The notes under the pieces are model-generated. The model saw only the letters and a program-made list of their open reading frames with translations. It made no database searches and was not told the origin of the DNA. A program made the position numbers and the translations under genes. Positions 16,013-51,694 of a stretch of DNA of 64,000 nt are shown one piece after another (position 1 is the first letter of the stretch; each line of letters starts with the position of its first letter). This DNA is from Thioalkalivibrio sp. XN279. Its GTDB lineage: Bacteria; Pseudomonadota; Gammaproteobacteria; Steroidobacterales; XN24. The DNA is taken from assembly GCF_011089885.1 (NCBI RefSeq), contig NZ_JAANBD010000027.1, positions 372,001-436,000 of the forward strand, written 5' to 3'.

Positions 16013-16031
16013 ATTTCACGGAGCTGTTGCC

Positions 16032-17504: not shown

Positions 17505-17507
17505 GCG

Positions 17508-19442: not shown

Positions 19443-19444
19443 GG

Positions 19445-19470
19445 CGGCGTGTCATGCGCAGGACACGCCG
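19445..19470 (+). terminator. Hairpin after the PhoX gene
   Basis: A 9-bp inverted repeat, CGGCGTGTC and GACACGCCG, with an 8-nt loop begins 2 nt after the PhoX stop. It has no T-run. It likely marks the 3' end of the DUF1254-DUF1254-PhoX operon and sits just upstream of operator copy E. Confidence 0.5.
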
Positions 19471-19492
19471 GGGCAAGTCGGAGAAGCTCCGG

Positions 19493-19537
19493 ATTGCGCG
19501 CGGCCGAGCAATTTCCCCGAGCGCTGCTCCATAGAAT
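19493..19537 (+). promoter_or_regulatory. Shared Crp/Fnr-type operator plus -10 box, copy E (weakest)
   Basis: ATTGCGCGCGGCCGAGCAAT at 19493-19512, then 19 nt, then TAGAAT at 19532-19537. The outer ATTG/CAAT bases are kept but the inner half-sites deviate and the spacer is one base longer than in the other four copies. The DUF1254 gene starts at 19602. Confidence 0.6.
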
Positions 19538-19601
19538 CCGGAGCAGTAGAACCGGCTGCCGCCGGTCATCACTAGGCGCCGCATCTCACGGAGTTGTTGC
19601 C

Positions 19602-21110: not shown

Positions 21111-21123
21111 TAGCGGCCGCTAC

Positions 21124-21173
21124 CGCCGGACCCTGGCCTGCGTGTCAGCCGACGCCCAGGCCGGGGTCCGGCG
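21124..21173. terminator. Long hairpin between convergent genes, reaching into the transporter 3' end
   Basis: Arms 21124-21140 and 21157-21173 pair over 17 positions with one G-T wobble and a 16-nt loop. The hairpin lies 13 nt after the DUF1254 stop. Its right arm lies within the last codons of the convergent transporter gene (stop 21145). It may act as a bidirectional terminator. Confidence 0.55.
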
Positions 21174-22017
21174 AGTCCGTCAGGCGACGGCGCAGCATCA
21201 CGGCGATCAGCAGTACCGGCGCCTGGAGCAGCACGAAGAACGCGCTGAAGACGGCGAACTCCCGGTGCTGGAAGGTCGTCACCGCCAGCAGCGCCGCGAT
21301 ACCCGCATTGCGCACCCCGAACTCGATCGCCAGGACCGCCCGGTCGCTGCGCTCGAGTTGGAGCAGGCGGCCGCTGAGCCATCCGGCCAGGAGGGCCAGC
21401 AGCGTGAAGCCGGCCGTCAGCACCACGGCCTCGCCGAACAGCGCGGCGACGGCCTCGCGCTGATCGGCGAACAAGAGAGCGAGAAACAGCGCGAGCAGGC
21501 TGAAGCCGAAAACCCGCACAACCCGCCGGCCGCGCTCGAAGACAGCCGGAAAGCGGTGCCGCAGCGCCATGCCGAGCGCCACCGGCAGCAGCAGGAACAA
21601 CACCAGGCGGGCCGTCATTTCGCCCACCGGCACCCGGAACGCCTCGAGCCCGAGCGCGGCCGGCACGAGCGCCGCAAACAGCAGGGGCATCGCCGCCAGG
21701 GCGACCACCCCCGACACTGCCGTCAGCGCAATCGAGAACGCCACATTCAGCCGGGCGACGGAGCAGTAGTAGTTGGACAGGACGCCGCCCGGGCTGACGG
21801 CCACGAGGAGCAGCCCGAAGGACAGGACCGGATCCGGCTGCAGCAGCCAGATCATCAGTAACGCCAGCAGCGGCAGGAGCACCAGCTGCCCCAGCGTACC
21901 CCCGGCGAGCGCCCGGCGCATGCGCAGCGAGGCGTCCAGTTGCCCGCGCGTGATGTCGGTGCCGACGATGGCCATCATCAGTAACACGATGATCGCGAAC
22001 AGGGACTCGAGGGTCAT
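21145..22017 (-). CDS. BASS-family (bile acid:sodium symporter) transporter
   Basis: A 290-residue inner-membrane protein with about nine or ten predicted transmembrane helices. The family moves organic anions (bile acids, pyruvate, pantoate and others) with sodium. Recognisable family blocks are VSPGGVLSNYY around residue 75 and the crossover-region motif EFGVRNAGIAALLAV near residue 235. The ATG at 22017 puts the first helix at the N-terminus; upstream in-frame extensions are charged and read through the operator region. It is divergent from the second LysR gene, which is a plausible regulator. The substrate cannot be told from sequence. Confidence 0.85.
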   Translation of the reverse strand: MTLESLFAIIVLLMMAIVGTDITRGQLDASLRMRRALAGGTLGQLVLLPLLALLMIWLLQPDPVLSFGLLLVAVSPGGVLSNYYCSVARLNVAFSIALTAVSGVVALAAMPLLFAALVPAALGLEAFRVPVGEMTARLVLFLLLPVALGMALRHRFPAVFERGRRVVRVFGFSLLALFLALLFADQREAVAALFGEAVVLTAGFTLLALLAGWLSGRLLQLERSDRAVLAIEFGVRNAGIAALLAVTTFQHREFAVFSAFFVLLQAPVLLIAVMLRRRLTDSPDPGLGVG

Positions 22018-22060
22018 GGGCGGGGTCCGGCAGCCTCCGATGCGCCAACTTTGTCGCGAC

Positions 22061-22104
22061 ATTGTGCGACGTCGAACAATCTTCGGGGGGCGGCTCAATA
22101 GAAT
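22061..22104 (+). promoter_or_regulatory. Shared Crp/Fnr-type operator plus -10 box, copy C
   Basis: ATTGTGCGACGTCGAACAAT at 22061-22080, then 18 nt, then TAGAAT at 22099-22104. It points toward the LysR gene at 22151 and lies 43 nt upstream of the divergent transporter start, so it may also affect that gene. Confidence 0.75.
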
Positions 22105-22150
22105 CAAGCAGTATCAGTGCCTGCTGCCTTGAGGCCGCACCGTCTTGAAA

Positions 22151-23113
22151 ATGAAGCTGCGCCAGATCGCCCATGCCCTCGCCGTCTCGCGTCACGGCGG
22201 CTTTCGGCGTGCCGCCGAGGCGCAGCACCTGTCGCAGCCCGCCCTCTCCCGCAGCATCCACAACCTCGAGGAGGCGCTGGGTGTGCCGTTGTTCGATCGC
22301 GAATCCAGCGAGGTCACGCTGACGCCCTACGGCGAGGTGTTCCTACGCCGGGCGGAGGCCATCCTGGCCGAGGCCGCCGAGCTGGAACGCGAGATGAGCG
22401 CCATGAAAGGCCTGGGCGTCGGACGCCTCGCGGTCGGCATGAGCGTGACGGCGGCCCGGCTGTCCGGGGTCCGCGCCGTGGCGCGGCTGCTGGGCGAGTA
22501 TCCGGGCCTGCAGGCCCGCCTCGAAACGAGGACCTGCCGCGACGTGGAACGACGGGTGCGCAACCGGCAGGTGGACATCGGTTTCGGCGAGATCGGGCAC
22601 CTGCACGACGTGCCGGAGCTCGAGGTCGAGGCGGTCGCGCGCCACGAGATGGTGTTCTACTGCCGCACCGGGCATCCCTTGCTGGACCGCGACGACGCGC
22701 TCTCCCACGCCGACCTGGACGAGTATCCCTTCGCCGGCATCCCGATCCCGTTCCGCCTCGCGCGGCTGTTCCCGCACAATCGTCACCTCGACCCGGACAC
22801 CGGCGAACTGTTCCCGCCGATCCTGGTGGAGGACCTCCACGCCGCCTGCAACATCGTCGCCGGCACCGACGCCCTCGGCGTGGCCGTGCCGCTCCTGCTC
22901 GAGCCCTGGCTGCAGCAGGGCGAGCTGGCGGTGCTGCCGTTCCGCCGGCCGTGGCTGCGGGTGGACTATGGCTTCATCACGCTGGCGTCGCGCGCCGCGG
23001 CGCCGGCCGTCGAGCGGTTCAAGGACCAGGTGCGGGAGCTCGAGCTCGAGGTCGTGGCGCGCAACGAGGCGCTGCTCGAGGACGTTTTCCAGGCCGCCGC
23101 CCCAGCGGCCTGA
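22151..23113 (+). CDS. LysR-family transcriptional regulator 2
   Basis: A 320-residue LysR regulator, close paralogue of the one at 13511. The helix-turn-helix is at about residues 16-36 (FRRAAEAQHLSQPALSRSI) and the effector-binding domain follows. It has the same 3' segment PWLRVDYGFITLASRAAAP. ATG 22151 is chosen; a TTG at 22145 is an alternative. The gene is itself under operator copy C, which suggests a cascade in which the Crp/Fnr-type regulator controls a LysR regulator. Its 3' end is only 6 nt from the convergent Crp/Fnr gene. Confidence 0.9.
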   Translation: MKLRQIAHALAVSRHGGFRRAAEAQHLSQPALSRSIHNLEEALGVPLFDRESSEVTLTPYGEVFLRRAEAILAEAAELEREMSAMKGLGVGRLAVGMSVTAARLSGVRAVARLLGEYPGLQARLETRTCRDVERRVRNRQVDIGFGEIGHLHDVPELEVEAVARHEMVFYCRTGHPLLDRDDALSHADLDEYPFAGIPIPFRLARLFPHNRHLDPDTGELFPPILVEDLHAACNIVAGTDALGVAVPLLLEPWLQQGELAVLPFRRPWLRVDYGFITLASRAAAPAVERFKDQVRELELEVVARNEALLEDVFQAAAPAA

Positions 23114-23119
23114 GGCTTC

Positions 23120-23827
23120 TCACCACCCCGTCGCGAGGGCTCGCAAACCGGGCGCATCGGCAACGCGCAACGTCCGGTAACCCCGCTCGACCAGGCCGCG
23201 GGCCTCGAATGCCCTCAGCACCTGCACCAGCGTAGTGCGGGAGACGTGCGCCATGGTCGCCAGCTCTTCCTGCGTCACCGGCACGTCGGTCCGCCCCGGG
23301 CGCGAGCGCCGCGGCGAATTCAGCCCAGTGATGCGCAGCAGCACGCTGGCGCAGCGGCGCTCATGGTCGTCCAGCAGCGAGTCGGCGTAGGCGGAGATCG
23401 CCGTATCACCGTACTCCATGATGCCGCTGGCGATCGCCTCCCACCATTCGGGCCTTTCCCCGAGCAGCGAGCGGAGGACCCGGTCCGGGATGGCCGCCAT
23501 CAGCGTCTCGACGCGCGCCAAGGCGCTGACCCGCGGCGCGCTCCGGCCCACGACGGTGCCGTAGCCGATCCAGGCGCCCTCGTGGAGGATATGCAGCAAA
23601 GGGTTGTCGCCGGCGCCGAACCGCGAGTAGATCTCGACGGCTCCGTCGACGATGCCGCAAAAATTGACGTACGTATCGGTGGCTCGGTAGATCGGCTGGC
23701 CGGCGGCGCAGGTCACCCATGCGCAGCGGCCGAGGACCGCGTCCTGGAACTCCTTTGGGGCGCGCCCGAACCAGCCCTCGTTGTCCTTGAGGATCGCCAG
23801 CCGTTCAGGAATCGGCAGTCGGGACAT
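23120..23827 (-). CDS. Crp/Fnr-family transcriptional regulator, likely master of the local regulon
   Basis: A 235-residue protein with an N-terminal cyclic-nucleotide-binding-type beta-roll (AGQPIYRATDTYVNFCGIV, then DNPLLHILHEGAWIGYG), a long dimerisation helix and a C-terminal winged helix-turn-helix (TQEELATMAHVSRTTLVQVL). No Fnr-type cysteine cluster is evident. In the recognition helix SRTTLVQ, the Arg equivalent to CRP Arg180 is kept, but CRP Glu181 and Arg185 are replaced by Thr and Gln, so a target unlike TGTGA is expected. Operator copy D lies 17-36 nt upstream of its start, between it and the divergent DUF1254 gene, which suggests autoregulation. ATG 23827 fits the family start; the longer open frame merely translates the operator. 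Confidence 0.87.
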   Translation of the reverse strand: MSRLPIPERLAILKDNEGWFGRAPKEFQDAVLGRCAWVTCAAGQPIYRATDTYVNFCGIVDGAVEIYSRFGAGDNPLLHILHEGAWIGYGTVVGRSAPRVSALARVETLMAAIPDRVLRSLLGERPEWWEAIASGIMEYGDTAISAYADSLLDDHERRCASVLLRITGLNSPRRSRPGRTDVPVTQEELATMAHVSRTTLVQVLRAFEARGLVERGYRTLRVADAPGLRALATGW

Positions 23828-23843
23828 AGGAAAAAACCCCCGG

Positions 23844-23887
23844 ATTGTGCGCGCTCGTGCAATCTTCCGGGGGGCGCTTCCTAGAAT
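23844..23887 (+). promoter_or_regulatory. Shared Crp/Fnr-type operator plus -10 box, copy D
   Basis: ATTGTGCGCGCTCGTGCAAT at 23844-23863, then 18 nt, then TAGAAT at 23882-23887. The DUF1254 gene starts at 23928. On the other side the Crp/Fnr gene starts only 16 nt from the repeat, too close for an activated promoter, so the same site could repress or limit its own regulator. Confidence 0.75.
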
Positions 23888-23927
23888 CAAGCGCGTCGTC
23901 CGCAAGTCTCAAACGGAGCCTCGAACC

Positions 23928-39152: not shown

Positions 39153-39193
39153 TTGACATACAGCCATACCGTTCATATGGTTTGCCATATGAA
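39153..39193 (+). promoter_or_regulatory. vapBC promoter and autoregulatory operator over the start codon
   Basis: TTGACA (39153-39158), 17 nt, and TATGGT (39176-39181) form a good sigma-70-type promoter. The perfect 9-bp inverted repeat TTCATATGG-TTTG-CCATATGAA (39172-39193) covers the -10 box and the vapB start codon at 39189. Transcription should start at about 39188-39189, which would give a leaderless vapB mRNA. The repeat is the likely binding site for the VapB-VapC complex. Confidence 0.75.
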
Positions 39194-39422
39194 AACCACC
39201 CTGAACATCGATGACAGCGTGATGCAGCGCCTGCGTGAAGCGGCGGCGCGCCAGGGCCGGACCATGTCGGAACTGGTCGAGGCCGGGCTGCGCCGAGTAC
39301 TGGACGAGGTGGAGGAAGGCGCCGACCAGGTGCGCGAGCCGTTGCCGCAATGGCAAAGCGGCGGCGCCTATGTGGACGTATCTGATCGCGACGCACTGCA
39401 AGACCGGATGGAGCGGGACTGA
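39189..39422 (+). CDS. vapB: VapB-type antitoxin (ribbon-helix-helix)
   Basis: A 77-residue protein with an N-terminal ribbon-helix-helix DNA-binding domain (KTTLNIDDSVMQRLREAAA, then TMSELVEAGLRRVLD) and an acidic C-terminal tail that would wrap around the toxin. It should neutralise the PIN-domain toxin encoded immediately downstream and repress its own promoter. ATG 39189 sits inside the operator and no Shine-Dalgarno sequence precedes it, so translation may be leaderless. The pair is on the strand opposite to the TPR array and splits it. Confidence 0.85.
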   Translation: MKTTLNIDDSVMQRLREAAARQGRTMSELVEAGLRRVLDEVEEGADQVREPLPQWQSGGAYVDVSDRDALQDRMERD

Positions 39423-39872
39423 GTGCCGGCGATGTTCGTCGTCGATACCAACGTGCTGTTGTACGCCGCCGATGCCGACAGCGAATACCACGCACCCTGC
39501 CGCGACCTGGTCGAGCAGGCCCGGATCCAGGCGGCGCCCTGGTTCCTGACCTGGGGGATCTGCTACGAGTTCCTGCGCGTCAGCACGCACCCGCGCGTGT
39601 ACCGCAGCCCGTGGACCAACGCCGCGGCCTGGCGATTCATCGAGACGCTGCTGGCCTCGCCCAGCCTCAGCGTCCTGACCGCGACTCGCCGGCACGCGGC
39701 CGTGCTGCGCCAGTGCCTCGACGAACTGCCGGAGGCGCGCGGCAACCTGATGCATGACCTGCATACCGCGACGCTGATGCGCGAGCACGGCATCGCCCGC
39801 ATCGTGACCCGCGATACCGATTTTCACCGCTTCGGCTTCCTGGAGGTCATCGACCCCCTGCGCCCGGCATGA
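39423..39872 (+). CDS. vapC: VapC-type PIN-domain toxin (RNase)
   Basis: A 149-residue PIN-domain protein, predicted Mg2+-dependent ribonuclease. Acidic active-site residues are visible in VVDTNVLLY (Asp8 of the chosen start region), CYEFLRV, MHDLHTATLM and TRDTDFHRF, a complete set. GTG 39423 follows the vapB stop directly; an ATG three codons later is possible. VapC toxins usually cut tRNA or the rRNA sarcin-ricin loop; the target here is not predictable. Confidence 0.88.
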   Translation: MPAMFVVDTNVLLYAADADSEYHAPCRDLVEQARIQAAPWFLTWGICYEFLRVSTHPRVYRSPWTNAAAWRFIETLLASPSLSVLTATRRHAAVLRQCLDELPEARGNLMHDLHTATLMREHGIARIVTRDTDFHRFGFLEVIDPLRPA

Positions 39873-39915: not shown

Positions 39916-42042
39916 CTACTCATTGGTCTGCGCCTCCGCCCACGCCTGGTAGCGAGCCTGCAGCGCCAGGTAGCGTGGATGCTCGCGCAGCGAGTCGAAA
40001 TCCGGGTCGATCGCGAACAGGAGAAACCGGTGCGGGCCGAAGATCTCCACCTGTTGTTCGAGGTAATGCACGGCCCGATCGGGATCGCCGGCACGCGCAA
40101 AGGCGCCAGCCAGCCTGGGCAGGATCGAGTGCAAGCCCCAGACGTCACGCGGCGCGTTTGCCAGGAAATCCGCCTCAGCCGCCCGCACGCCCTCCAGGTC
40201 GCCCATGAGGCCGGGCAGATCGACAGGCTGATAGTAGGCGTTGCCGAGCCAACGCGAGGGATAGGGGTCGCTGCGCTGGTCCATCCGGTCCTTGATTTCC
40301 GCCAGCAGGCGATCGGCCTCGGCCTGCCGGCCCATGACCAGCAAGGCCCAGGCCCTCGCCATCGCATAGGTCTCGGGAAAATCGCCCGGGGATCGCTGGT
40401 CCTCCGGCCAGAGCGCGGGTGACAGCGCAGACTCGATACGCTCGGCGTCGCGGGAGAATATAGCGATACGTGCCGGGGTATCGACGAAATTCGGCAATGG
40501 CCCGTCGATCGCCGCCCAGGCCGCTTCCACGTCGCCCTGCCACTCATGCAACCAGATCTCGCGAATCCGGGTGTCGCCGCCGAGCCGCTCCGCGCGCTCC
40601 AGCCAGGCGGCGGCCGCAGCGAAGTCGCCGCGCGCCTGCGCGGTCGTCTCCACCATGGAATTGATCACGTCGACCGCCTGCGGATTGATCGCCAGCGCGC
40701 GTTCGAAAGCGAAGATCGCATCGTCGAAGCGGCCATCGCGGCGGGCCACGTACGCGCTGGACTCCCAGGCCTCGGCATGGTCTGGCACCTCCGCGAGGAT
40801 CCCCTGCAGGATCCGGTCGGCCGAGGCGAAATCGAGCTGGGCGAAGTAGTACTGTCGCGCTTCGGCCAGCCGGGTCTCGATACTATCCGGCGCCAGCCGC
40901 TTCGCTTCTGCCACGCTTTTCCGGGCGTCCTCGCGCAGCGAACGCGGGCCAACCGCGAGCCAGAAACTCACCAGCTGGATATCCGCCTTGCGTGCATAGG
41001 CCTCGGCAAACTCCGGATCGAGCGCGATGGCCCGGTCAAACTCGGCAATCGCCTGGCGTGAGGTTTCGGACGAGATCCCCGAGTAGCCCGACAACAGTTT
41101 GCCGCGCAGGAACGCCTCGTAGGCCTGCAGGTTGCGGGTCGACCCGGCGCGCAATGCATCGGTTTCTTCGGGACTCAGCACCACCTGCATTGCATTGGCG
41201 ACCGCCTGCCCGATGTCGGCCTGGATCGCGAAAATGGTCTCGGTCGTCAACTCGCGATCGTAGCTCTCCGCCCACAGATGCACGTCGCTGGCGCCGTCGA
41301 TCAGCTGCACGGTGACCCGCACGTGCTCGCCGGCCCGCTGCACTGCCCCTTCCAGCACCACGGCCGCGCCCAGCTCACGGGCGATCTCCGGCACCGACTT
41401 GTCCGTGTCCGCATAGCGCATCATCGAGGTGCGCGAGATTACTTTCAGCGAGCCGATCTTCGACAGCTGGGTGAGCAGGTCGTCATGAATGCCCTCGGCG
41501 AAGAAGGCGTCCTCCTCGCGCACGCTGCGATTGCGAAACGGCAGCACGGCGATCAGACCGTCCTCGCGCGCCACGCTCGGGCTGGCAGACTCGCCGCCGG
41601 CCGCGGCCACGGGATTCTCCGCCGGCGCCTCGGGGGCTGCCGGTGGCGTGGGCCCGCCGGCGACCGGTCCCTGGGGATCGTCCGTCCCCGGCTTCAGCCA
41701 CCATCCGGCGCTCAGCCCGATGCCGACCGCCACCAGCAGCCCGGCCACGAGCAAGGTGCGCTTGCCGAGCAGCGCCGGCGTCGTTTCCTGCGCAACTTGC
41801 GCGTCCGCCACGTCGTCCGTGCGCTTCACCCCTTCCGGTGTCAGCTCCAGGGCCCAGGCCAGCACCAGCGCGATCGGGAACCCGAGCAGGATGAGCGCGA
41901 CCACGAGGTTCATGCCCCAGTCCGGCACCCCCATCCGCGGCAGCATGATGTCGGCGCCTTGCAGCACGGCGAACGCCGTCGCGGCGTAGACCACGGCAAC
42001 ACGGATGACCTTGCGCCGCTTGAGCTCCGCGAACAGGCTCAT
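39916..42042 (-). CDS. TPR array protein P7 (HDDLLTQL type, no Cys tail)
   Basis: A 708-residue paralogue, last gene of the seven-gene operon. Its membrane module matches P4 and P8 (ADIMLPRMGVPDW, ALLGKRTLLVAG). Its TolB-like domain is of another subtype shared only with P3: AEGIHDDLLTQLSKIG, VISRTSMMRYAD and EGAVQRAGEHVRV in place of SEELLN, RTSAFSFKG and EGSVRK. The TPR region is long, with clear helical pairs such as FDRAIALDPEFAEAYARKADI. No Cys tail. The ATG overlaps the P6 stop by 4 nt. Confidence 0.88.
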   Translation of the reverse strand: MSLFAELKRRKVIRVAVVYAATAFAVLQGADIMLPRMGVPDWGMNLVVALILLGFPIALVLAWALELTPEGVKRTDDVADAQVAQETTPALLGKRTLLVAGLLVAVGIGLSAGWWLKPGTDDPQGPVAGGPTPPAAPEAPAENPVAAAGGESASPSVAREDGLIAVLPFRNRSVREEDAFFAEGIHDDLLTQLSKIGSLKVISRTSMMRYADTDKSVPEIARELGAAVVLEGAVQRAGEHVRVTVQLIDGASDVHLWAESYDRELTTETIFAIQADIGQAVANAMQVVLSPEETDALRAGSTRNLQAYEAFLRGKLLSGYSGISSETSRQAIAEFDRAIALDPEFAEAYARKADIQLVSFWLAVGPRSLREDARKSVAEAKRLAPDSIETRLAEARQYYFAQLDFASADRILQGILAEVPDHAEAWESSAYVARRDGRFDDAIFAFERALAINPQAVDVINSMVETTAQARGDFAAAAAWLERAERLGGDTRIREIWLHEWQGDVEAAWAAIDGPLPNFVDTPARIAIFSRDAERIESALSPALWPEDQRSPGDFPETYAMARAWALLVMGRQAEADRLLAEIKDRMDQRSDPYPSRWLGNAYYQPVDLPGLMGDLEGVRAAEADFLANAPRDVWGLHSILPRLAGAFARAGDPDRAVHYLEQQVEIFGPHRFLLFAIDPDFDSLREHPRYLALQARYQAWAEAQTNE

Positions 42043-43925
42043 GGCGCGTACTCGCTGCAATCGAGCCGCCGGCCCTCCGGATCATCCACCGGCCGGCAGC
42101 CTCCCGGGTAACCCTCGGCTTCCCAGTAGGCTTCGGCGCCGCTGTCGCGCATGAACTGGTAGAAGCGTGGGTCCTCGCGCAGCCAGCCGAGCGACGGCAG
42201 CCAGGCGGCGAAGCGCATGTAGTTCTGGCCGCTGCGACTGGTGAGCGTCACGGCCTCGAACAGGCGGTCCGTATCTCGCATCATCAACGCCAGGATGACG
42301 CGCAAGGTATTGGGGCCCGAGCCCTCGGTGGGGATGGAGCCGAAGAGGGCGTCCCGCTTGTCAGCATCCATGACGGCAGCCTGGATCGCCTGCAACTGCT
42401 CGGAATCCCTGTCCAATGATGCTGTGAGCTCCACGAACTGCTCGAGGTCGCCCCGGTTGACGGCCTCGATAGCAAGCAACTGCGTCCAGTACCAGCCGCT
42501 CGGATTCAGCTCCAGTCCCCGCCTGGCAATCCGCAGGCCCTCGTCTTCGCGCCCGACCACGGCATAGGCGTAACCGAGATAGCCGTGATTGATTGACACC
42601 AACGGGTCCTGGGCATGCGCACTCTCGAACCAGGGCAACGCAAAGTCGACGCGCCCGAACTCCGCCAGCGAGATGCCGAGCCAGAGGCGGGGCGATGTGT
42701 CCGGAGAGACTTGCCGGGCCGCCTCCTCGAGCATGGCGAGGCCATCCGCGACCTGGCCCTGCTCGACCATGCCGCGGCCCATGCTGGCCAGCGCGATCGG
42801 TATCTCGGGGTCCAGGGCCAGCGCCCGCGCCAATGCCTGGTCCGAACGCTCGATGAGGACCGCGGGATCCGACTCGGTCGAATAGCCGCCACCGGCGACC
42901 ACACCGGTCGCTGCTGCGAGGAAGGCCCACGCCTCGGCAAAGCCTGGATCGCGATCGACGGCCGCCTGCAGGTCCGCGATCGCGACGTCCATGTCGAGGC
43001 CGCGCTGGTAAAAACGCGAGCGGCCGCGCAGGAAATACTCGTAGGCCTCGAGGTCCTGCGTCGGCACAGCCACCGAGACCTGGCGCGTGCCGAGGATGTC
43101 CGCGAGCGCAGTCGTGATGGCCACCGCGATCTCCTCCTGCACCCGGAAAATGTCCACCAGGTCGCGCTCGTAGGTCTCCGACCAGAGGTGGGCGTCGTTC
43201 TCCGCATCGATCAGCTGGGCCGTGATGCGCACGCGGCTGCCCTGCTTGCGTACCGAGCCCTCGAGGACATGCTGCACGTCGAGCAGCTCGCCGATCTCGG
43301 CCACCGGGACATTCTTCCCCTTGAAGGAAAACGCCGAGGTGCGAGAGGCAACCTTGAGGCCGTCGACCCCCGCCAGGATGTTCAGCAGCTCTTCGGAAAT
43401 TCCGTCAGCGAAGTACTCGTTCTCCGGGTCCGGACTCATATTCAAGAACGGCAGCACGGCAATGCCGCTCGCGGACTCGGCGACGGTCTCTGCCGCAGCG
43501 ACAGGAACCGCAGCCCGCTCAGCCGCCTCTTTGGCAGCGGCGGCCACCTCGGTCGACGCCGGCACGTCATCCTGGTTGCCTGCAAACCAGATGCGCTCCA
43601 CCACCAGCCCGCCGATGACGAACAACAGCACCACGACGATGAAGCGATCGAGACGCCGCCCGGTCTGCGGAGTGACCGATACGGCAGGCTCGACCTCCTC
43701 GGTGCGCTTCACGCCCTCCGGCGTCAGCTCGAAGGCCCAGGACAGGAACAGCGCCAGCGGGAAGGCCAGGATCGCCAGTGCGATCACGAGCGTCACGGTC
43801 CAGTCCGGCAGCCCAAGCCGCGGAAAAATCGTGTCGCTGACCTCTATCAGCAACCAGGACACCACCAGGTAGGCCGCCCCGACCCGCACCACGTTGCGCC
43901 GCTTGAGTTCGTTCCAAAGGCTCAT
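42039..43925 (-). CDS. TPR array protein P6 (Cys tail)
   Basis: A 628-residue paralogue starting MSLWNELKRRNVVRVGAAYL. The third helix ends in VVERIWFAG, shared with P1. The TolB-like domain is canonical (GIAVLPFLNMSPDPENEYFA, GISEELLNILAGVDGLKVAS, RTSAFSFKGK). The following segment TRQVSVAVPTQDLEAYEYFL and the TPRs group it with P4 and P10. The tail is GGCRPVDDPEGRRLDCSEYAP, close to that of P4. The start overlaps the P5 stop by 4 nt (ATGA). Confidence 0.88.
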   Translation of the reverse strand: MSLWNELKRRNVVRVGAAYLVVSWLLIEVSDTIFPRLGLPDWTVTLVIALAILAFPLALFLSWAFELTPEGVKRTEEVEPAVSVTPQTGRRLDRFIVVVLLFVIGGLVVERIWFAGNQDDVPASTEVAAAAKEAAERAAVPVAAAETVAESASGIAVLPFLNMSPDPENEYFADGISEELLNILAGVDGLKVASRTSAFSFKGKNVPVAEIGELLDVQHVLEGSVRKQGSRVRITAQLIDAENDAHLWSETYERDLVDIFRVQEEIAVAITTALADILGTRQVSVAVPTQDLEAYEYFLRGRSRFYQRGLDMDVAIADLQAAVDRDPGFAEAWAFLAAATGVVAGGGYSTESDPAVLIERSDQALARALALDPEIPIALASMGRGMVEQGQVADGLAMLEEAARQVSPDTSPRLWLGISLAEFGRVDFALPWFESAHAQDPLVSINHGYLGYAYAVVGREDEGLRIARRGLELNPSGWYWTQLLAIEAVNRGDLEQFVELTASLDRDSEQLQAIQAAVMDADKRDALFGSIPTEGSGPNTLRVILALMMRDTDRLFEAVTLTSRSGQNYMRFAAWLPSLGWLREDPRFYQFMRDSGAEAYWEAEGYPGGCRPVDDPEGRRLDCSEYAP

Positions 43926-45754
43926 GGCGCGCACTCGTAATCGTCCTCGCCCACCGGCCGGCACTGCGGCGGGTAGCCGTGCTCACGCCAGTAGTCGGGG
44001 ATGCCCTGCCGCTCGACGATGCGGCGGAAGGCCGGAGAGTCACGGAACGCCGCGTGCAGCGGATCCCACTGCGCGACCATGGTGGTGAGCCGCGCGGAGG
44101 ATTCAGCGGCGCGCTCGTAGTCGTGCAGGACGAAGTGCCAGTTGGGCGTATCGAAACGCGGATTGCGCGCCATCAGCCCATCCATGTCCGCGGGTGTCTC
44201 GCCCTGTTCGATCGCTGCGAGGACTGCATGCTGCAGCTCCAGCGACATGTCCAGGTCGCGCATCATCAGCAAGGCCGGCAGCCGCCCCCCGCGCGCCACG
44301 AGGCGGAACAGGAAGGTGTCGCCACGATTGTGCGTGAAGCCTGCCAGCACGCCCTGCTCGTACAGCGCCAGGGCCTGGTCGTCGTCACCAGAGAAGGCGA
44401 CCGCGAGTGCCTTCCAGCGCACGCAGTTACCGTAGGCGGGATCGATGGCCAGGCAGGCCTCGAGGTCCGCCAGCGCCCGGTCCATGAAGCCGAGATTGAC
44501 CCAGGTGATGGCGCGCCAGAGATAGACCGACGCCAGCATCGGGTCGGCGTTGAGGGCCCGGTCGAACAGGGCCAGCGTCTCCGCAAAGGGGATTGGCAAG
44601 CGGTACTGCATCAGCAGGGCACGCACCGCCCATGGCATGGCGAGCGTCGAATCGAGCGCCAGCGCCCGCTCTGCCGCCATGAGCGCCCGGGCATCCATGG
44701 CCGCGACATCCGTGTCCGGGTAAACCGCCTCCCAGTCGATGATCACCGCGGCGGCGGCTGCAAGACCCTCCCAGCCGCGCGCGAACCCGGGATCGAGCGC
44801 CACCACCTCCTCGAACAGGCGCACCGACTCGTCGAGGCTGGTACGGGACAGGAACAGCTCGCGCGCCTTGAGGTAGCGCTCGTAGGCGTCGAGGTTGCCG
44901 GTATCCGCGCGCACCGTTACAGCGCGCTCGCTCCCGCCACTGCCGAGCGTCCCGCGCAGGGCCGCCACGATGGCATTGGCGATCTCGTCCTGGATGGCGA
45001 AGATGTCCGTCAGCTCGCGGTCGTAGGTCTCCGACCAGAGATGGCGGTCGTTCACGGCGTCGATGAGCTGGGCCGTGATGCGCACCCGGTTCCCCGACTT
45101 GCGCACACTGCCCTCGAGAATGTGATTGACGTTCAGTTCCTGCGCAATCACGGCCGCGCCGAGCTCACGGCCCTTGTAGGCGAACGACGAGGTGCGCGAG
45201 GCCACGCCGATGTCCTCGACCTTCACCAGCACGTTGAGCAGCTCTTCCGAGATGCCGTCGGCGAAAAACTCGTTCTCCGGGTCCGCGCTCATGTTGACGA
45301 AAGGCAGGACTGCAACGGACTTCTCCGCGCTGGCCCGCACGGGCACGGCCGGGCGCGGAGCCGGATCGCTTGTGGCGCGGGCCGCCCCCGCGGATTCATC
45401 AGAGCCGTCCGCCTCGGCCTGCACCGGCGCCTGCTCCGACTCGGATGTGGGCCACAGCGTCCACCCCAAGGCAGCCGCCGTCACCAGCACAACGATCGCG
45501 TAGAACCGCTTGCTGCCCGTGCGGCCCTCGGTCACCTGCATGCCTTCGGGCGTGACCTCGAAGATCCAGGCCAGGATCAGCGCCAGCGGAAAGCCGAGGA
45601 TGACCAGCAGCGTCACCATGCGCGCCGTCCACTCGGGCAGGTTCAGGTTCGGGGCCACCGTGCTGGCCACCTCGATGATGACCCAGCCCACCACGAGATA
45701 GGCTGCGGCCACGCGGATCACCTTGCGGCGCCGGAGTTCGGTAAAGAAACTCAT
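43922..45754 (-). CDS. TPR array protein P5 (Cys tail)
   Basis: A 610-residue paralogue, the shortest. It starts MSFFTELRRRKVIRVAAAYLV and has three helices and an Ala/Pro-rich linker. The TolB-like domain reads SVAVLPFVNMSADPENEFFA, RTSSFAYKG and HILEGSVRKSGNRVRITAQL, followed by TDIFAIQDEIANAIVAAL. The tail HGYPPQCRPVGEDDYECAP is almost that of P9. ATG 45754 overlaps the P4 stop by 4 nt; an in-frame extension of 54 codons upstream lies entirely within P4 and is not coding. Confidence 0.88.
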   Translation of the reverse strand: MSFFTELRRRKVIRVAAAYLVVGWVIIEVASTVAPNLNLPEWTARMVTLLVILGFPLALILAWIFEVTPEGMQVTEGRTGSKRFYAIVVLVTAAALGWTLWPTSESEQAPVQAEADGSDESAGAARATSDPAPRPAVPVRASAEKSVAVLPFVNMSADPENEFFADGISEELLNVLVKVEDIGVASRTSSFAYKGRELGAAVIAQELNVNHILEGSVRKSGNRVRITAQLIDAVNDRHLWSETYDRELTDIFAIQDEIANAIVAALRGTLGSGGSERAVTVRADTGNLDAYERYLKARELFLSRTSLDESVRLFEEVVALDPGFARGWEGLAAAAAVIIDWEAVYPDTDVAAMDARALMAAERALALDSTLAMPWAVRALLMQYRLPIPFAETLALFDRALNADPMLASVYLWRAITWVNLGFMDRALADLEACLAIDPAYGNCVRWKALAVAFSGDDDQALALYEQGVLAGFTHNRGDTFLFRLVARGGRLPALLMMRDLDMSLELQHAVLAAIEQGETPADMDGLMARNPRFDTPNWHFVLHDYERAAESSARLTTMVAQWDPLHAAFRDSPAFRRIVERQGIPDYWREHGYPPQCRPVGEDDYECAP

Positions 45755-47670
45755 TGGCCGTACCCGCTGCAATCCAGCCGGCGCCCGGCGGGGCCATCGA
45801 CCGGCCGGCAGCCCGGCGGGAAACCGTCCAGCTCCCAGAAGCCCACGGTGCCGATGCGGTCCATGTACGCATAAAGGGCGGGGTCCTCCCGCAGCCACCC
45901 CAGCGATGGCAACCACGCGCCGATCGTCAGCATCAGCTGGCTGACTCTCAAGTCCCCCATGCTGATAGCACGCGCACCATTACGGAACATGAGGTCCTTG
46001 ACCACGGCCCGGAAACGGTCGACCTCGTCTGCGCCAGGCTCGCCGGACACAAACACCGCGTCGCGCTGCGCGGGATCTGAGATTGCAAGCTGCATCTCGG
46101 TAAAGAACTGCCGGTCTACCGGGTTGAGGTCGTCAGCGGCCAGCATGGCGCCGAGCAACTCGTAAGCCCGCGCCTCGGCACCGGAGTTCACCAGCTCGAT
46201 GAGCATCTGGAAAGACCAGAAAACACTGCCCGTGAGTTCCTGGGAGCGCAGGCCGAGAAGAATCGCTTCCTCGGCTCGCCCAGCGGTGACATAGGCAATG
46301 CCGAGATAACCCTGGTTGATCCCGACCAGCGGGTCCAGCGCATTGGCCTTCTCGAGATACGGCAGGGCGCGATCGACACGCCCGAGCTCCAGCAGGGACA
46401 AGCCGAGCCAGAGCGGCGCAGAGGAATCGGCGGTCACCCGACTGGCAGCGCGCTCAAGCAGCTGCAAGCCTTCCACGATTTGGGCCGGGTCCCTGTTACG
46501 TGTCAGCAGCTGGCCCTTGACCGCCATTGCAGTCGCGAGTTCCGGGTCAAGGGCGAGGGCCCGCTCCACAGCGGCCCCGGCCTCGTCCATCAGGCGCGCG
46601 CGATCGAGCTCGGTGGGATAACCGCCGTTGCCGACCACGAAGCTGGCCGCGCCGAGAAACGCCCAGGCCTCCGCGAAATCCGGGTCGCGCTCGACCGCAG
46701 ACCGCAGGTCGGCAATTGCCTCATCCAGGCCGAAACGCTGGTAGAAACGCGTGCGGCCACGCAGGAAAAGCTCGTATGCCGTGAGGTCGGTCGTCGTCGC
46801 AGCCACAGAAACCTGGCGCACCCCGAGTACGTCCTTGAGCGCCAGGGTGATCGCCTGGGCGATTTCCTCTTGCACGCGGAAGATGTCGACCAGGTCGCGC
46901 TCGAAGGTCTCCGACCACAGGTGGGTGTCGCTCTCCGTCTCGATGAGCTGGGCCGTGATCCGCACACGATCGCCCTGCCGCCGCACCGAGCCCTCGAGGA
47001 TGTGGCGCACGCCGAGCTCGCGTGCGATCTGCGGAATCGGCGTGTCCTTGCCGCGGAACGAGAAGGCCGACGTGCGCGACGCGACCTTGAGTCCGTCCAC
47101 GCCGGCCAGGATGTTCAGTAACTCTTCCGCTATGCCCTCGGCAAAGAACACGTTGTCGGGATTGGCGCTCATGTTCACGAAGGGCAGCACCGCGATGGTG
47201 TTCTTGTCCGGCTCGTCCGCCGTGTCTGCCGCTGCCGTCGTCGTGGCCGCCTGCACCGCATCGTCAGCCGCGGTCGTGGCGGCAGTCGGGACCGGCGCCT
47301 CGCCCGGGTCTTCTACGGCCGGCTTCAGGAACCAGCCCGCGCCCAACCCGATGCCGACGGCCACCAGCAAGGCCGCAAGGAACACGGTGCGCTTGCCCAG
47401 CAGCGCGGGCGCTGCCTCGGGCGTTGCCGGGTCCGGTAGGTCATCCGTCCGCTTCACGCCCTCCGGCGTCAGCTCCAGCGCCCAGCCCATGATCAGCGCG
47501 ATGGGGAAACCCAGCACCACCAGGCCGACGATCAGGTTCATGGACCAGTCGGGCACGCCGAGGCGCGGCAGCATCAGGTCCGCCGCCTCCAGCAGCGCAA
47601 AGGACGTGGCGGCATACACCACCGCAACCCGCACCACCTTGCGGCGCTTGAGCTCGGCGAACAGGCTCAC
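45751..47670 (-). CDS. TPR array protein P4 (mosaic, Cys tail)
   Basis: A 639-residue paralogue with a GTG start that overlaps the P3 stop (GTGA). Its membrane module (MSLFAELKRRKVVRVAVVYA, ADLMLPRLGVPDWSMN, ALLGKRTVFLAALLV, AGWFLKP) is of the P7/P8 type, while everything from the TolB-like domain onward (GVDGLKVASRTSAFSFRGKD, VRQVSVAATTTDLTAYELFL, FPPGCRPVDGPAGRRLDC) is of the P6/P10 type. It is the clearest mosaic in the array. Confidence 0.88.
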   Translation of the reverse strand: MSLFAELKRRKVVRVAVVYAATSFALLEAADLMLPRLGVPDWSMNLIVGLVVLGFPIALIMGWALELTPEGVKRTDDLPDPATPEAAPALLGKRTVFLAALLVAVGIGLGAGWFLKPAVEDPGEAPVPTAATTAADDAVQAATTTAAADTADEPDKNTIAVLPFVNMSANPDNVFFAEGIAEELLNILAGVDGLKVASRTSAFSFRGKDTPIPQIARELGVRHILEGSVRRQGDRVRITAQLIETESDTHLWSETFERDLVDIFRVQEEIAQAITLALKDVLGVRQVSVAATTTDLTAYELFLRGRTRFYQRFGLDEAIADLRSAVERDPDFAEAWAFLGAASFVVGNGGYPTELDRARLMDEAGAAVERALALDPELATAMAVKGQLLTRNRDPAQIVEGLQLLERAASRVTADSSAPLWLGLSLLELGRVDRALPYLEKANALDPLVGINQGYLGIAYVTAGRAEEAILLGLRSQELTGSVFWSFQMLIELVNSGAEARAYELLGAMLAADDLNPVDRQFFTEMQLAISDPAQRDAVFVSGEPGADEVDRFRAVVKDLMFRNGARAISMGDLRVSQLMLTIGAWLPSLGWLREDPALYAYMDRIGTVGFWELDGFPPGCRPVDGPAGRRLDCSGYGQ

Positions 47671-49784
47671 GATCCGGACCCCTTGCGCGAGTACTTGGCG
47701 GCCAGCGCCTGGAAGGCCGGGTGGTCGCGATGCTGCTTGAACACCGGACGCAGCATCAGGCCGTCGAAACCCCAGTACTTCATCTCGAGCTTCAGGTAGT
47801 CGTCCATGGCCGCCGCCAGCGTCTCCGGCGAATCGAGCAGGCCCGTCACTATCAGCCTTTGTGCGGTCAGCTCCGACCGGATCACCATGTCGCGCGAGGG
47901 GATGCGCTGCGCCAATGCCTGGCGAGCGGCTTCCCGTGCCGCTTCGTCCTCGCCCCGCAGCGCCAGCGCCTCCGCGCGCGCCATCAGGGCCCGGTAGTCA
48001 TCCGGATGTTGTGCCAGCACGGCGTCGAGCGTGGTCAATGCCATCTTCGCCTGCGCGGCGGACTCGGCGCTGTTGCCCTGGGCCCAGGACAGGCGGGCGC
48101 GCATCAACGCTGTCGGCACCAGTTCGAACTGGTCCTCGAACCATTTTTCCCCGTCGTCGCCGAGGAGGCGCTCCACCGACGCGTAGTCCCCGGACAGGTA
48201 ATACAACAGTCCTTCTTGATACGCAGCCTGGGAGTCAGGCAGGTCCCGGCTCGACGTCGTGACGAAGCGCTCCAGTGGCGCAGGGTCGCCGAGCACCTGG
48301 AGCCTGAACCGCGGGCGCCAGGCCATTCCCTGCGCAGGCGCGTCGCCTTGGAGCGCTTCGAGGCGCGTATGCCAGCGCTCCACTTCGTCCACGTCGCCGA
48401 CCAGCCACGCATTCTCGATCAGCGTGACCAGGACCTGCTCCGACCGCGGCGCCAGCAGTGCTGCGGACTGCATGGTTTCGATCATCTCCTGCACACGGCC
48501 GGCACGACGCAGAATGAAGCCCCGCAGCGCCACCATCTCGGCGCTCCCCGGTAGCCCGATCGCAGCCCGGTCGAGCTCTTCGAGCGCGCCCTCGTAATCC
48601 AGGTACGCCCGGTAAAGGAACTCGGCGCGCGCCAGCCGCACCTCGGGATTGTCGGGCTCGAGTGCGAGCGCGCGGTCGATCCAGCGGCCGCCCTCGCGCC
48701 GGTCTTCATCACGACGGCTGTGGTGCCAGAAAATGTTCGTGTACTCGCGCCCGAGCTCGGCCATCGCGAGCACGAAGTTCTCGTCGAATTCCAGTGCCTG
48801 GCGATACAGCGCCATCCTGGCGCGGGTTTCCGCTTCGGCCCAGACCTCGCGCGTCGCGCGCGCCCTGAGGAACAGGTCGTAAGCCTCGGCGCTCTTGGTG
48901 GGCACAGCCGCGCCCGAGCTCATTGGCTCTCCCACGCCCAGCGCGCTGCCGAGCGCCGCCGCGATGGCCGCGGCGATGTCGGACTGGATCTCGAACACGT
49001 TCTCCGGCGTCAGCTCGCGGTCGAACGTTTCCGCCCACAGGTGCGCGTCGGTCTGCGTATCGATCAGCTGCGCGTTGATGCGCACCCTCTGTCCCGCGCG
49101 CTGCACCGCCCCCTCGAGAATGGTGGCGACGCCGAGTTCCTCGCCGATCTGGCGCACGTTCTTGGTGGTGTCGCGGTACTCCATCATCGAGGTGCGCGAG
49201 ATGACCCTGAGATCACCGTTGCGCGCCAGCTGCGTGAGCAGGTCGTCGTGCACGCCGTCGACGAAATACGCGGTGTCGGGCTCGGCGCTGCGGTTGGCGA
49301 ACGGTAGCACGGCAATGGAGCCCGGCAGCGGCTCGAAGGGCGGCGGCTCCAGGCGCGGCCGCCGTGCCTGTTCCGGTGCAGGTTGCCCTTGTGCGACAGC
49401 CGCAGGCGCAGCATCACCCGCGGCCTCCTGCTGCGGCCCCTGCAGCGCCGTGCCGAGGTGCTGCCAGGCCAGCAGGATCACCACCAGCACCACCGCCCCG
49501 AGCGTGATGACGTCGAGCCGGCGCGCCTGCGGGCTGGCGTCGCGCGCGTTGCTGCCGTCGTCGCGGCGGATGCCTTCCGGCCCGACTTCGAACACCCAGG
49601 CGATCGCCAGCACCGGCACGAAGCCAAGCAGCAACAGCGCGATCAGCGCCTTGCCCACCCACTCCGGCGCACCGATGAAGCCCAGCACGATCTCGGCCAC
49701 TTGCAGGATCAGCCAGCCGATCACCACGTAAGCCGCCGCCACGCGGAACACGTTCCGGCGCTTGAGCTCGTTGTACAGGCTCAA
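47667..49784 (-). CDS. TPR array protein P3 (HDDLLTQL type, no Cys tail)
   Basis: A 705-residue paralogue. TTG 49784 overlaps the P2 stop by 4 nt (TTGA) and gives the family N-terminus LSLYNELKRRNVFRVAAAYV; an upstream ATG at 49829 lies inside P2. The membrane module differs from that of P7, yet the TolB-like domain is the same subtype (VDGVHDDLLTQLARNGDL, RTSMMEYRD, EGAVQRAGQRVRI). The long TPR region (about residues 290-680) includes MAELGREYTNIFWHHSRRDE. The C-terminus is plain (AFQALAAKYSRKGSGS). Confidence 0.87.
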   Translation of the reverse strand: MSLYNELKRRNVFRVAAAYVVIGWLILQVAEIVLGFIGAPEWVGKALIALLLLGFVPVLAIAWVFEVGPEGIRRDDGSNARDASPQARRLDVITLGAVVLVVILLAWQHLGTALQGPQQEAAGDAAPAAVAQGQPAPEQARRPRLEPPPFEPLPGSIAVLPFANRSAEPDTAYFVDGVHDDLLTQLARNGDLRVISRTSMMEYRDTTKNVRQIGEELGVATILEGAVQRAGQRVRINAQLIDTQTDAHLWAETFDRELTPENVFEIQSDIAAAIAAALGSALGVGEPMSSGAAVPTKSAEAYDLFLRARATREVWAEAETRARMALYRQALEFDENFVLAMAELGREYTNIFWHHSRRDEDRREGGRWIDRALALEPDNPEVRLARAEFLYRAYLDYEGALEELDRAAIGLPGSAEMVALRGFILRRAGRVQEMIETMQSAALLAPRSEQVLVTLIENAWLVGDVDEVERWHTRLEALQGDAPAQGMAWRPRFRLQVLGDPAPLERFVTTSSRDLPDSQAAYQEGLLYYLSGDYASVERLLGDDGEKWFEDQFELVPTALMRARLSWAQGNSAESAAQAKMALTTLDAVLAQHPDDYRALMARAEALALRGEDEAAREAARQALAQRIPSRDMVIRSELTAQRLIVTGLLDSPETLAAAMDDYLKLEMKYWGFDGLMLRPVFKQHRDHPAFQALAAKYSRKGSGS

Positions 49785-51694
49785 CGCTCGCACTCCAGTC
49801 GCTGCGGGGCCACACCGACACGGCGACAATGATCCGGGTCGCCGAAGCGCTCCCAGAATTCCAGCAGGCCGTCACGCTGCGCCAGCTCGGCGAAACGCGG
49901 GTGCTCGCGGAAAGCGCGGTCCACGCTCGACCAGGTCATCAGTAGCAGGATCTGGCCTGCGTCCGGCTTGCTGCGCAGCGCCTCGCGAACGGCTTCGTCG
50001 GGCAGTCCCAGCATCAGGTAGAGCTGGCTCCATTCACGCTCCGGCCAGGCCGCCACGGCCGCGGCCACGGCGGCGCCGGCCTCAGCCCTCAGCGCCGGGT
50101 TCGACATTGCCGGCGCGACTTGCTCGTAGACCACGCGATGCTCAGGCGCGATGCGTCCGTCGTCCTGGAACCACTGGCGGAAGCGTCGCTCGGCCTCGGG
50201 ACCATAACCGTCCACCAGCGCCAGTTTCACCAGCCAGGCGCTGGCGGGGCCGCGCCAGCCGAGCTCATGCGCCCGCAAAAGACTGGTCTCCGCCGCTTCA
50301 TGCTCACCCTCGATCACCTGCGTGGCGCCGATCCAGCCGAAGTGGATGCCGCTCAGGGGGTCGAGGCCGTTGGCGCGCTCGAACGCTTCCCGCGCCGCCT
50401 TCACATGCCCGGCCTCCAGCAGGTTGAGGCCATGCCACATCCAGCTGTTGGCGTTGTTCGGGTCCCGCGCCAGCGCGCGTTCCGCCAGCTGAACCGCGGC
50501 GAGACGCTCGCCTCGCTCGGCAGCAAGACGGGCGCTGACGGCCAGCGCCTCCGGCAGGTCCGGCACCAGCGCCAGCGCGCGGCTCGTCGCGGAGCGTGCC
50601 TGTTCAGCCGCCTGGTCTGAAGGCATGTCGGAGAAATAAGACGGCATCACCAGCATCACGCCGCCCAGCGCGGCCCAGGCTTCGGCAAAGCGCGGATCGC
50701 GCGCCACGGCCTGCTCCAGCAACTCCCGCGCCGGCGGCAGGTTGGCCCCGCGCTGCGCGAACATCTGCCGGCCACGGAGATACAGCTCGTAGGCCTTGAG
50801 GTCGGTCGTCGGCTGCCGCACCTGCACCTCTCGCACGCCGAGCGTGTCGGCCAGTACGTCGGTGATGGCCTGGGCGATCTCTTCCTGCAGCGTGAAGATG
50901 TCCGTAAGGCGCCGGTCGAAGCTGCCGGACCAGACCTGGCGATCGGTCGCGGCCTCGACCAGCTGCGCCGTGATGCGCAGCTCGTCGCCCTGTCGCCTTA
51001 CCGAACCGTCCAAAAGGTGGGCCACGCCCAGCTCCTGCCCGATGTCGCGCACGGCGAGCTGCCGGTCGCGCAGGCTGAAAGACGAAGTGCGGGATGCGAC
51101 GCGCAGCCCCTCGACTCGCGCCAGCACGTTGAGAATCTCCTCCGCCATGCCGTCGGCGAGATAGGCGTTCTCCGGGTCCGGGCTGAGGTTGGCGAAAGGC
51201 AGGACCGCGATGGAGCGCGGATCGATCTCCCCCGCCGGTGTCCACCGGGGGGCCGGCTCGGGTGCCGACTGCTCGACCTGCGCCGCCCCGACGTCCGGCG
51301 CGTCAACCCGATGCGGCAGCACGAACTGGCGGATGGCCGACAACCCGATCGCCAGCAGCAGCAGCACGATGGTCACCTGGTCCATGCGGCGTGCGGTGCG
51401 CGCATTCTCCGGGTTGTCGAATTCCGGACCGCGATCGATGCGGATACCTTCCGGCGTCAGCTCGATCAGCCAGGCGAAAGACATCACCGGCACCAGCAGC
51501 AACCCGAGCACGATGATGAGCCAGCGCACCGCAGCATCCGGCAGGCCGAGCGCCGGCAGCAGCAGGTCGGCCAGCGCAATGAGGAACCAGGACAGCGCCA
51601 GCCAGGCGAGCCCGGCGCGCCAGACATTGCGTCGTTTCAGGTCGGCCAGCAGGCCGGGCGCATGCCCTGGCGCATTGCTCCCGGGCGAGGTCAC
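49781..51694 (-). CDS. TPR array protein P2 (Cys tail variant)
   Basis: A 637-residue paralogue with GTG 51694 overlapping the P1 stop (GTGA); GGAGG lies 8 nt before it. The family N-terminus is shifted inward by about 15 residues (LLADLKRRNVWRAG). The TolB-like domain reads SIAVLPFANLSPDPENAYLA, RTSSFSLRDRQLAVRDIGQE and LLDGSVRRQGDELRITAQL. The TPRs are regular (LAERALARDPNNANSWMWHG). The tail DPDHCRRVGVAPQRLECER keeps the two cysteines but is otherwise altered. Confidence 0.87.
   Translation of the reverse strand: MTSPGSNAPGHAPGLLADLKRRNVWRAGLAWLALSWFLIALADLLLPALGLPDAAVRWLIIVLGLLLVPVMSFAWLIELTPEGIRIDRGPEFDNPENARTARRMDQVTIVLLLLAIGLSAIRQFVLPHRVDAPDVGAAQVEQSAPEPAPRWTPAGEIDPRSIAVLPFANLSPDPENAYLADGMAEEILNVLARVEGLRVASRTSSFSLRDRQLAVRDIGQELGVAHLLDGSVRRQGDELRITAQLVEAATDRQVWSGSFDRRLTDIFTLQEEIAQAITDVLADTLGVREVQVRQPTTDLKAYELYLRGRQMFAQRGANLPPARELLEQAVARDPRFAEAWAALGGVMLVMPSYFSDMPSDQAAEQARSATSRALALVPDLPEALAVSARLAAERGERLAAVQLAERALARDPNNANSWMWHGLNLLEAGHVKAAREAFERANGLDPLSGIHFGWIGATQVIEGEHEAAETSLLRAHELGWRGPASAWLVKLALVDGYGPEAERRFRQWFQDDGRIAPEHRVVYEQVAPAMSNPALRAEAGAAVAAAVAAWPEREWSQLYLMLGLPDEAVREALRSKPDAGQILLLMTWSSVDRAFREHPRFAELAQRDGLLEFWERFGDPDHCRRVGVAPQRLECER

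Follow-up and report, generated by a model that had tools for sequence, protein, structure and literature searches.

The genome of Thioalkalivibrio sp. XN279 holds ten paralogous genes, P1–P10, on a 64-kb stretch of contig NZ_JAANBD010000027.1 (68% GC; hereafter the window). All ten lie on the minus strand between window positions 32913 and 53904 and are numbered in transcription order. Very probably these overlapping, tandemly arrayed genes encode sensor-like periplasmic proteins with a membrane anchor, each assembled from two halves that can be exchanged. Module trees and a breakpoint scan show that the halves of P4 and of P7 differ in history, as do those of 23 of the 45 genes found in three arrays of the genus, with the deduced joins mostly in or beside the linker. 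The first half is predicted to be a three-helix membrane module, the linker to be disordered, and the second half to be a TolB/CadC-like domain with tetratricopeptide repeats (TPR), together called the body.

Differing histories of the membrane and periplasmic halves

Each of the ten proteins, all from full-length open frames, has three parts: a ~115-residue membrane module, a linker, and a body that combines TolB/CadC-like and TPR regions. An earlier note on this DNA had proposed that P4 joins the membrane module of P7 and P8 to the TolB/TPR part and Cys tail of P6 and P10, and that P7 joins the P4/P8 module to the TolB subtype of P3. The motifs it quoted are recovered by exact match: among the ten proteins, ALLGKRT and RVAVVYAAT are limited to P4, P7 and P8, RQVSV and FLRGR to P4, P6 and P10, and HDDLLTQL and RTSMM to P3 and P7. 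Module identities and trees bear out the P4 combination. Protein identity in the membrane module is 74% for P4/P7, 68% for P4/P8 and 75% for P7/P8, against 43% and 37% between P4 and P6 or P10; in the TolB domain it is 74% for P4/P6, 71% for P4/P10 and 72% for P6/P10, against 46% and 45% between P4 and P7 or P8. The Cys tail, however, is not specific to this group, since P2, P5 and P9 have related Cys-containing tails. The P7 combination also stands, but its TolB likeness to P3 is only moderate (55% identity, with 35% in the membrane module and 28% in the TPR). The coordinates given in the note are exactly those of P4; the phenomenon spans the whole array.

In window-only trees, the membrane module groups P4+P7+P8 (support 100/100), whereas TolB groups P3+P7 (100/100) and P4+P6+P10 (80/93). 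The same tree for both modules, named in the note as the outcome that would speak against it, was not obtained; the trees differ and are well supported. Approximately unbiased (AU) tests rejected all six cross-groupings tried (p 6e-6 to 0.0026). Membrane data reject P4+P6+P10 (p 0.0015), P4+P6 (p 0.0026) and P3+P7 (p 6e-6), and TolB data reject P4+P7+P8 (p 1.6e-4), P4+P7 (p 3.2e-4) and P7+P8 (p 3.1e-4). These cross-groupings came from the note's grouping, whereas the 43-gene clades below were named after the trees had been seen.

Two same-genus genomes carry the array (one genome per species searched): G001 (Thioalkalivibrio sp. XN8; 16 members) and G002 (19 members), which with the ten of the window gives 45 genes, labelled A (window; A4 is P4), B (G001) and C (G002). 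B8b and C9b were missed by the initial motif and are excluded from the 43-gene trees and early identity comparisons; they were included later, assigned to the membrane clade by eye for the 45-gene analysis. A 13-gene membrane clade (A4, A7, A8, B4, B6, B8, B9, B10, C4, C7, C9, C10, C11; 100/100) and an 11-gene TolB clade (A4, A6, A10, B4, B7, B9, B14, C4, C5, C8, C14; 99/99) cut across each other. All seven tests on 43 genes reject (p 7e-58 to 3e-4), with N-terminal (N) data rejecting the body clade at p 7e-58 and TolB data rejecting the membrane clade at p 8e-29. The TPR tree of 45 genes recovers the 11-gene body clade (support 99) and TPR data reject the 15-gene membrane clade (p 3e-4); hence TolB and TPR move together. 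Over 336 within-genome pairs, Spearman correlations were -0.09 for N/TolB, -0.11 for N/TPR and 0.60 for TolB/TPR, values reached by 433/500, 455/500 and 0/500 permutations, respectively.

The pattern extends to a second genus, from another family of the order (G015, G028), where we examined 34 two-module members in 20 regions chosen from the listed matches. Identity is 97% in the membrane module and 57% in TolB for L124_1/L118_2, 88% and 43% for the adjacent L130_1/L130_2, and 90% and 61% for the adjacent L118_1/L118_2; all four tests made on quick trees reject (p 6e-5 to 7e-46). L118_2 and L124_1 (G028), with their near-identical membrane modules and different bodies, lie on different contigs. 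Exchange may thus not require tandem position, unless these contigs are fragments of one array.

Tandem paralogue families made mosaic by conversion or unequal crossover are a known kind, as in immune-gene clusters and bacterial surface-protein arrays. The likeness lies in discordant domain trees, here well supported for parts of genes, in copy-number differences and in the neighbour effect described below. The difference is that here the join falls mostly in the linker between membrane and periplasmic halves, the genes overlap, and the products are predicted inner-membrane sensors. Silent-cassette antigenic variation draws on truncated donor copies, whereas all ten window genes are full-length.

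Breakpoints, age and possible sources of the proposed module exchange

Recombination detection, which the note had suggested as a check, was positive. A MaxChi-type scan placed 786 of 84,958 triples above chi-square 40. As a control, five gap-matched alignments were simulated on a single tree, and each had 0 of ~84,800 triples above that threshold. Of the 23 best breakpoints, one for each gene with a two-parent signal (P4 coordinates), 12 fall within nt 345–474, the linker, which makes up 6.7% of P4 (binomial 6e-9); 5 fall before nt 345 and 6 beyond. When three orthologue sets are combined by eye (A4/B4/C4, A6/B7/C8, B6/C7), with orthologues that differ in parents or breakpoints kept separate, 8 of 18 are left in the linker (binomial 1e-5). 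Stricter identity limits leave 13/45 genes, each with its best breakpoint before nt 480. Three parts can be told apart in the mosaic C5: its first 200 nt are closest to A5/B5/C6 (up to 96%), the start of its TolB domain to A4 (93–97%), and its TPR stands on its own. We do not claim a special recombination site at gene starts: between N classes, synonymous identity is 73% over codons 6–10 (ELKRR), but values of 75–80% are reached in other five-codon stretches.

Similar membrane modules sit nearer to each other on the arrays than expected (3/5000 and 2/5000 permutations at two thresholds), a clustering that is absent for TolB (2423/5000) and TPR (285/5000). The neighbours C5/C6, B9/B10 and C15/C16 have N modules in common (N cores 91–92% nt identical) but not bodies. 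The clustering and these neighbour pairs support the note's wording that recombination took place between tandem copies; for P4 itself, whose exchange is old, this can only be proposed. We propose that homologous recombination among array copies, as gene conversion or unequal crossover, would replace the 5' module, that related arrays of other lineages would also recombine with the array copies, that the reading frame and 4-nt gene overlaps would be kept through each replacement, and that the disordered linker would tolerate the joins.

Comparison of orthologues, defined by the body, shows how often the halves have parted after the species diverged. Of 33 pairs, 10 (from 5 orthologue sets) have a displaced membrane module and 2 a displaced TolB; both of the latter involve C14, whose orthology is doubtful. 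The body region used starts at nt 700 and overlaps that of TolB (475–890), which favours TolB agreement. Displaced N modules on orthologous bodies are seen in C4 vs A4/B4, C10 vs A8/B10 and C1 vs A1/B1. C4, the G002 orthologue of P4, carries a different membrane module: A4/C4 and B4/C4 are 96–100% identical over the last 700 nt (96–99% for P4 with C4), 56–57% around the linker and 65–76% in the membrane module. A9/B13 has the reverse pattern (91–93% over the first 300 nt, 50–78% in the body). Other combinations are kept, that of P4 in B4 and that of P7 in C11 (G002). P4 is unlikely to be an artefact of assembly, since a genome of the same genus that was assembled independently has the combination in collinear order (N 92%, body 96% nt). 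The first ~165 nt of P7 are 90% identical to C9b, the gene after C9, and 80% to C11.

The exchange in the P4/P7/P8 trio is old, judging by saturated synonymous sites. For the membrane core, codon identity at synonymous positions stands at 56% for P4/P7, 58% for P4/P8 and 47% for P7/P8 (background 59.6, s.d. 9.1, n 297), and we do not claim ongoing exchange in the window on account of this saturation. Among the relatives, the top pairs are C15/C16 (79%), B9/B10 (78%), C5/C6 (76%) and C13/C17 (76%).

Several observations weigh against exchange between array copies. Saturation means that within the trio only trees argue for it, not fresh DNA identity, and even the top pairs of the relatives stand only ~2 s.d. 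above background. We found no near-identical donor for the P4 membrane module. The N module is still orthologous in 23/33 orthologue pairs, the breakpoints before and beyond the linker lie outside the proposed join, and concordant tandem pairs also exist in the second genus, e.g. L121_1/L121_2 (87% membrane, 89% TolB). A deletion model for P7 predicted a module nearer to C9, which in G002 comes next after the orthologue of P6, than to C11, the body orthologue of P7; over the module as a whole this was not borne out, with 81% identity to C11 and 77% to C9.

A mainly horizontal origin, in which whole genes or 3' parts from other species' arrays recombine with the residents, is compatible with exchangeable halves and is a serious contender, if somewhat short of an even chance. 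Orthologous bodies are 90–98% identical in 13/33 pairs (3/9 window/G001, 3/10 window/G002, 7/14 G001/G002). Outside the array, longer window/G002 stretches reach 73–79% and short pieces 65–77%; window/G001 pieces range over 66–98%, with 77–81% in the flank nearest P1, and G001/G002 has 74.5% in the one 2.7-kb flank compared. B6–B9 and C7–C10 have 9.2 kb in common at 93%, well above that single flank, and the toxin-antitoxin inserts B12–B13 and C13–C14 are 92.5% identical although their array neighbours differ. Because the body identities of these 13 pairs exceed most sampled flanks, cross-species import probably adds to the mosaicism as a second source, with the best support in cases that involve G002. 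Import as the main source fits poorly with the clustering of similar N modules by array distance within genomes and with neighbours that have common N modules but not bodies, and high window/G001 identity is not array-specific, since the background itself is so variable. That variability, together with the single G001/G002 flank, also limits the dating of exchanges against the sister species.

Chiefly unequal crossover in the linkers, which would give the downstream gene's N module to the upstream gene's body, is a mechanism within the reading of exchange between copies, and as the prevailing one we entertain it only tentatively. The C4-C5-C6 layout fits it, having a direct repeat of 474 nt at 84% that comprises a tail and the N module after it; so do C15 and B9, whose nearest N partners lie downstream and nearest TolB partners upstream, and the different array sizes (10, 16, 19). 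Yet P6 and P10, the body relatives of P4, lie downstream rather than upstream, and pure unequal crossover is insufficient for the three-part C5, where conversion tracts would be needed too.

One-time accretion of domains, with each combination fused independently long ago and then copied vertically without exchange between copies, would suit the saturated trio and the conservation of the P4 and P7 combinations in B4 and C11. We disfavour it as very improbable in view of the sister-species orthologous bodies with different N modules and the mosaic signal in 23/45 genes. That there was no recombination, and that selection, convergence or unequal module rates produced the shared membrane modules, we scarcely credit: membrane helices are of low complexity and the synonymous sites of the trio are saturated, but mutually exclusive supported clades, the empty single-tree simulations and the N cores of the three neighbour pairs, 91–92% identical in nucleotides, all stand against it.

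Array layout, inserts and flanking DNA

Seven of the nine P1–P10 junctions are 4-nt stop/start overlaps (Table 1). The overlap motif between adjacent array genes (window 42042–51694) is ATGA, GTGA or TTGA, and the overlaps put the upstream gene's C-terminal tail codons where the downstream gene's ribosome-binding site is expected. Across the three arrays, measured to the N motif, 24/42 junctions are 4-nt overlaps, 7 are at 5–32 nt and 11 have inserts of 668–1457 nt.

Table 1. Array genes, parts of P4 and inserted genes in the window
Feature	Window coordinates	Strand	Description
P1	51691..53904	-	Open reading frame with N module, TolB-like part and TPR
P2	49781..51694	-	Array member; start GTG, overlapping P1 stop by 4 nt
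P3	47667..49784	-	HDDLLTQL/RTSMM TolB subtype; membrane module unlike P4/P7/P8
P4	45751..47670	-	Mosaic: P7/P8-class membrane module and P6/P10-class body
P4 membrane module, codons 1–115	47326..47670	-	Three predicted helices; tree clade with P7 and P8
P4 linker, predicted disordered	47197..47325	-	pLDDT <50; breakpoints concentrated
P4 TolB-like domain, first half of CadC-like body	46780..47196	-	Structural match, module identity
P4 TPR part and Cys tail	45754..46779	-	Pfam TPR matches; CadC alignment up to model residue 478
P5	43922..45754	-	Array member
P6	42039..43925	-	Array member; body related to P4
P7	39916..42042	-	Second mosaic: P4/P8-class membrane module and P3 TolB subtype
Insert between P7 and P8	39142..39915	+	Type II toxin-antitoxin pair by Pfam
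Ribbon-helix-helix antitoxin	39153..39419	+	Pfam
PIN toxin	39423..39869	+	Pfam
P8	37273..39159	-	P4/P7-class membrane module, other body; start ATG 39159 or TTG 39141
P9	35420..37276	-	Array member
Intradiol dioxygenase-like gene between P9 and P10	34762..35409	-	PF00775, E 1.9e-39
P10	32913..34769	-	Array member; body related to P4 and P6

Of the 11 long inserts, eight contain toxin-antitoxin genes of type II (PIN with ribbon-helix-helix, ParDE, HigBA), the PIN match in the B5–B6 gap being below the cut-off. A dioxygenase occurs in 3/11, one of them also with HigBA, counting a B13–B14 copy that was assigned by 80% nt similarity and not itself scanned; a DUF4143 ATPase occurs in 1/11. The P7–P8 insert is 93% identical over 771 nt to the C11–C12 insert of G002. 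Dioxygenase-like DNA (~80%) stands at the equivalent place in G001 (B13–B14) and between other neighbours in G002 (C15–C16). Some G001/G002 inserts appear, from BLAST block ends, to follow a 16-, 32- or 80–89-nt gene-start remnant. The three genomes have 8, 10 and 9 PIN matches over the cut-off, and 6 of these 27 genes lie in the ~100 kb that the arrays make up (expectation 0.22, p 1.4e-7, or p 8e-5 if two orthologous pairs are counted once; tested post hoc, after the enrichment had been noticed).

The upstream flank, with a GMC oxidoreductase in the window, aligns across all three genomes, and downstream the first 4.9–9.9 kb past the arrays are mutually unmatched. Window 1–8829 matches G001 96078–104131, right after its array, and G002 226853–239130. 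Between this shared region and the array the window has ~24 kb extra (~8830–32900), much of which matches another G001 contig. Within it, ~9 kb (about 14501–23893) is 97–98% identical to contig C17 of G001 and nearly unmatched in G002; lying next to pieces at 79–86%, it is possibly a transferred segment.

Predicted fold and possible sensor role

In the AlphaFold model of P4 (mean predicted local distance difference test (pLDDT) 81.6; alignment of 21 sequences), helices at residues 12–37, 42–64 and 93–114 make up the predicted membrane module. Residues 113–151, the linker, have pLDDT <50, and are followed by the TolB-like domain, the TPR region and a C-terminal hairpin. Fold comparisons refer to this one model. 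Structurally, the body comes closest to the CadC periplasmic domain, top-ranked by Foldseek and with Z 21.5 over 298 residues at 13% identity by VIA-align, spanning model residues 150–478. The four CadC structures (3ly7, 3ly8, 3ly9, 3lya; Z 20.5–21.5 over 298–301 residues, next rows Z 15) have the same fold, an alpha/beta sandwich followed by TPR-like helices. The next-best fold is the TolB N-terminal domain (Z ~15, residues 155–290); TolB of the Tol-Pal system has that fold in common, but where it carries a C-terminal beta propeller, the array proteins have the helical TPR region. Pfam matches in P1–P10 are TPR-type repeats only, with no Trans_reg_C at E up to 0.01. CadC has Trans_reg_C, which that search did not find in P1–P10, and a single transmembrane helix, in place of which the P4 model has three long N-terminal helices. 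'CadC-like' is therefore used for the predicted fold of the body only, two defining features of CadC being missing.

Family profiles gave little beyond this. The P4 TolB region scored 17.0 bits against FlgO (PF17680; gathering cut-off 22.6) and the P7 region gave no match; P3 and P7 matched TIGR02800 weakly (22.0 and 19.1 bits, cut-off 343.15). Compared with the PDB by sequence only, the P4 membrane module gave no match at E up to 1; its sole Pfam match is DUF2627 (E 0.3, far under the cut-off).

Similar TolB-like/TPR bodies occur elsewhere in the window genome. Pfam finds them joined to Trans_reg_C (L022, L024) and fused to a TIR domain (L023:1174-2952); the N terminus before a similar body in L026 was read as a class III cyclase, unconfirmed by Pfam. 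The Trans_reg_C and TIR combinations also count in favour of exchangeable halves.

We tentatively suggest that the body may sense an envelope cue, like the periplasmic domain of CadC, and that the membrane module might set the partner or output, so that a swap would re-wire an existing sensor; this joint claim is rather doubtful. One paper describes co-component systems, VtrA/VtrC and ToxR/ToxS, with fast-evolving envelope sensor genes, reports some operons in which a C-terminal Cys codon overlaps the start of the next gene, and considers whether the periplasmic domains of these systems may be related to that of CadC (PMC9214523). Such systems are two-gene cassettes with a DNA-binding output, whereas here at least ten full-length paralogues stand without one. 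In the open-licence literature searched we found no paper on module swapping in this protein family. It is conceivable, though unlikely, that the array is a combinatorial sensor bank: a cassette-like, supposedly integrase-free array whose membrane-partner modules and sensor bodies would reassort freely at gene starts and linkers, be traded between species and be guarded against collapse by seeded toxin-antitoxin genes.

Envelope sensors are usually studied singly. With anchor and periplasmic half uncorrelated among the paralogues of a genome, the array amounts to a natural domain-swap experiment. It suggests a linker that is permissive as a join, and halves that can be separated in function. 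For a membrane module lacking both a Pfam match over the cut-off and a PDB match, such swaps would offer a direct route to its role. The toxin-antitoxin genes between array members may likewise serve as a test case for the stabilisation of recombination-prone arrays beyond integrons.

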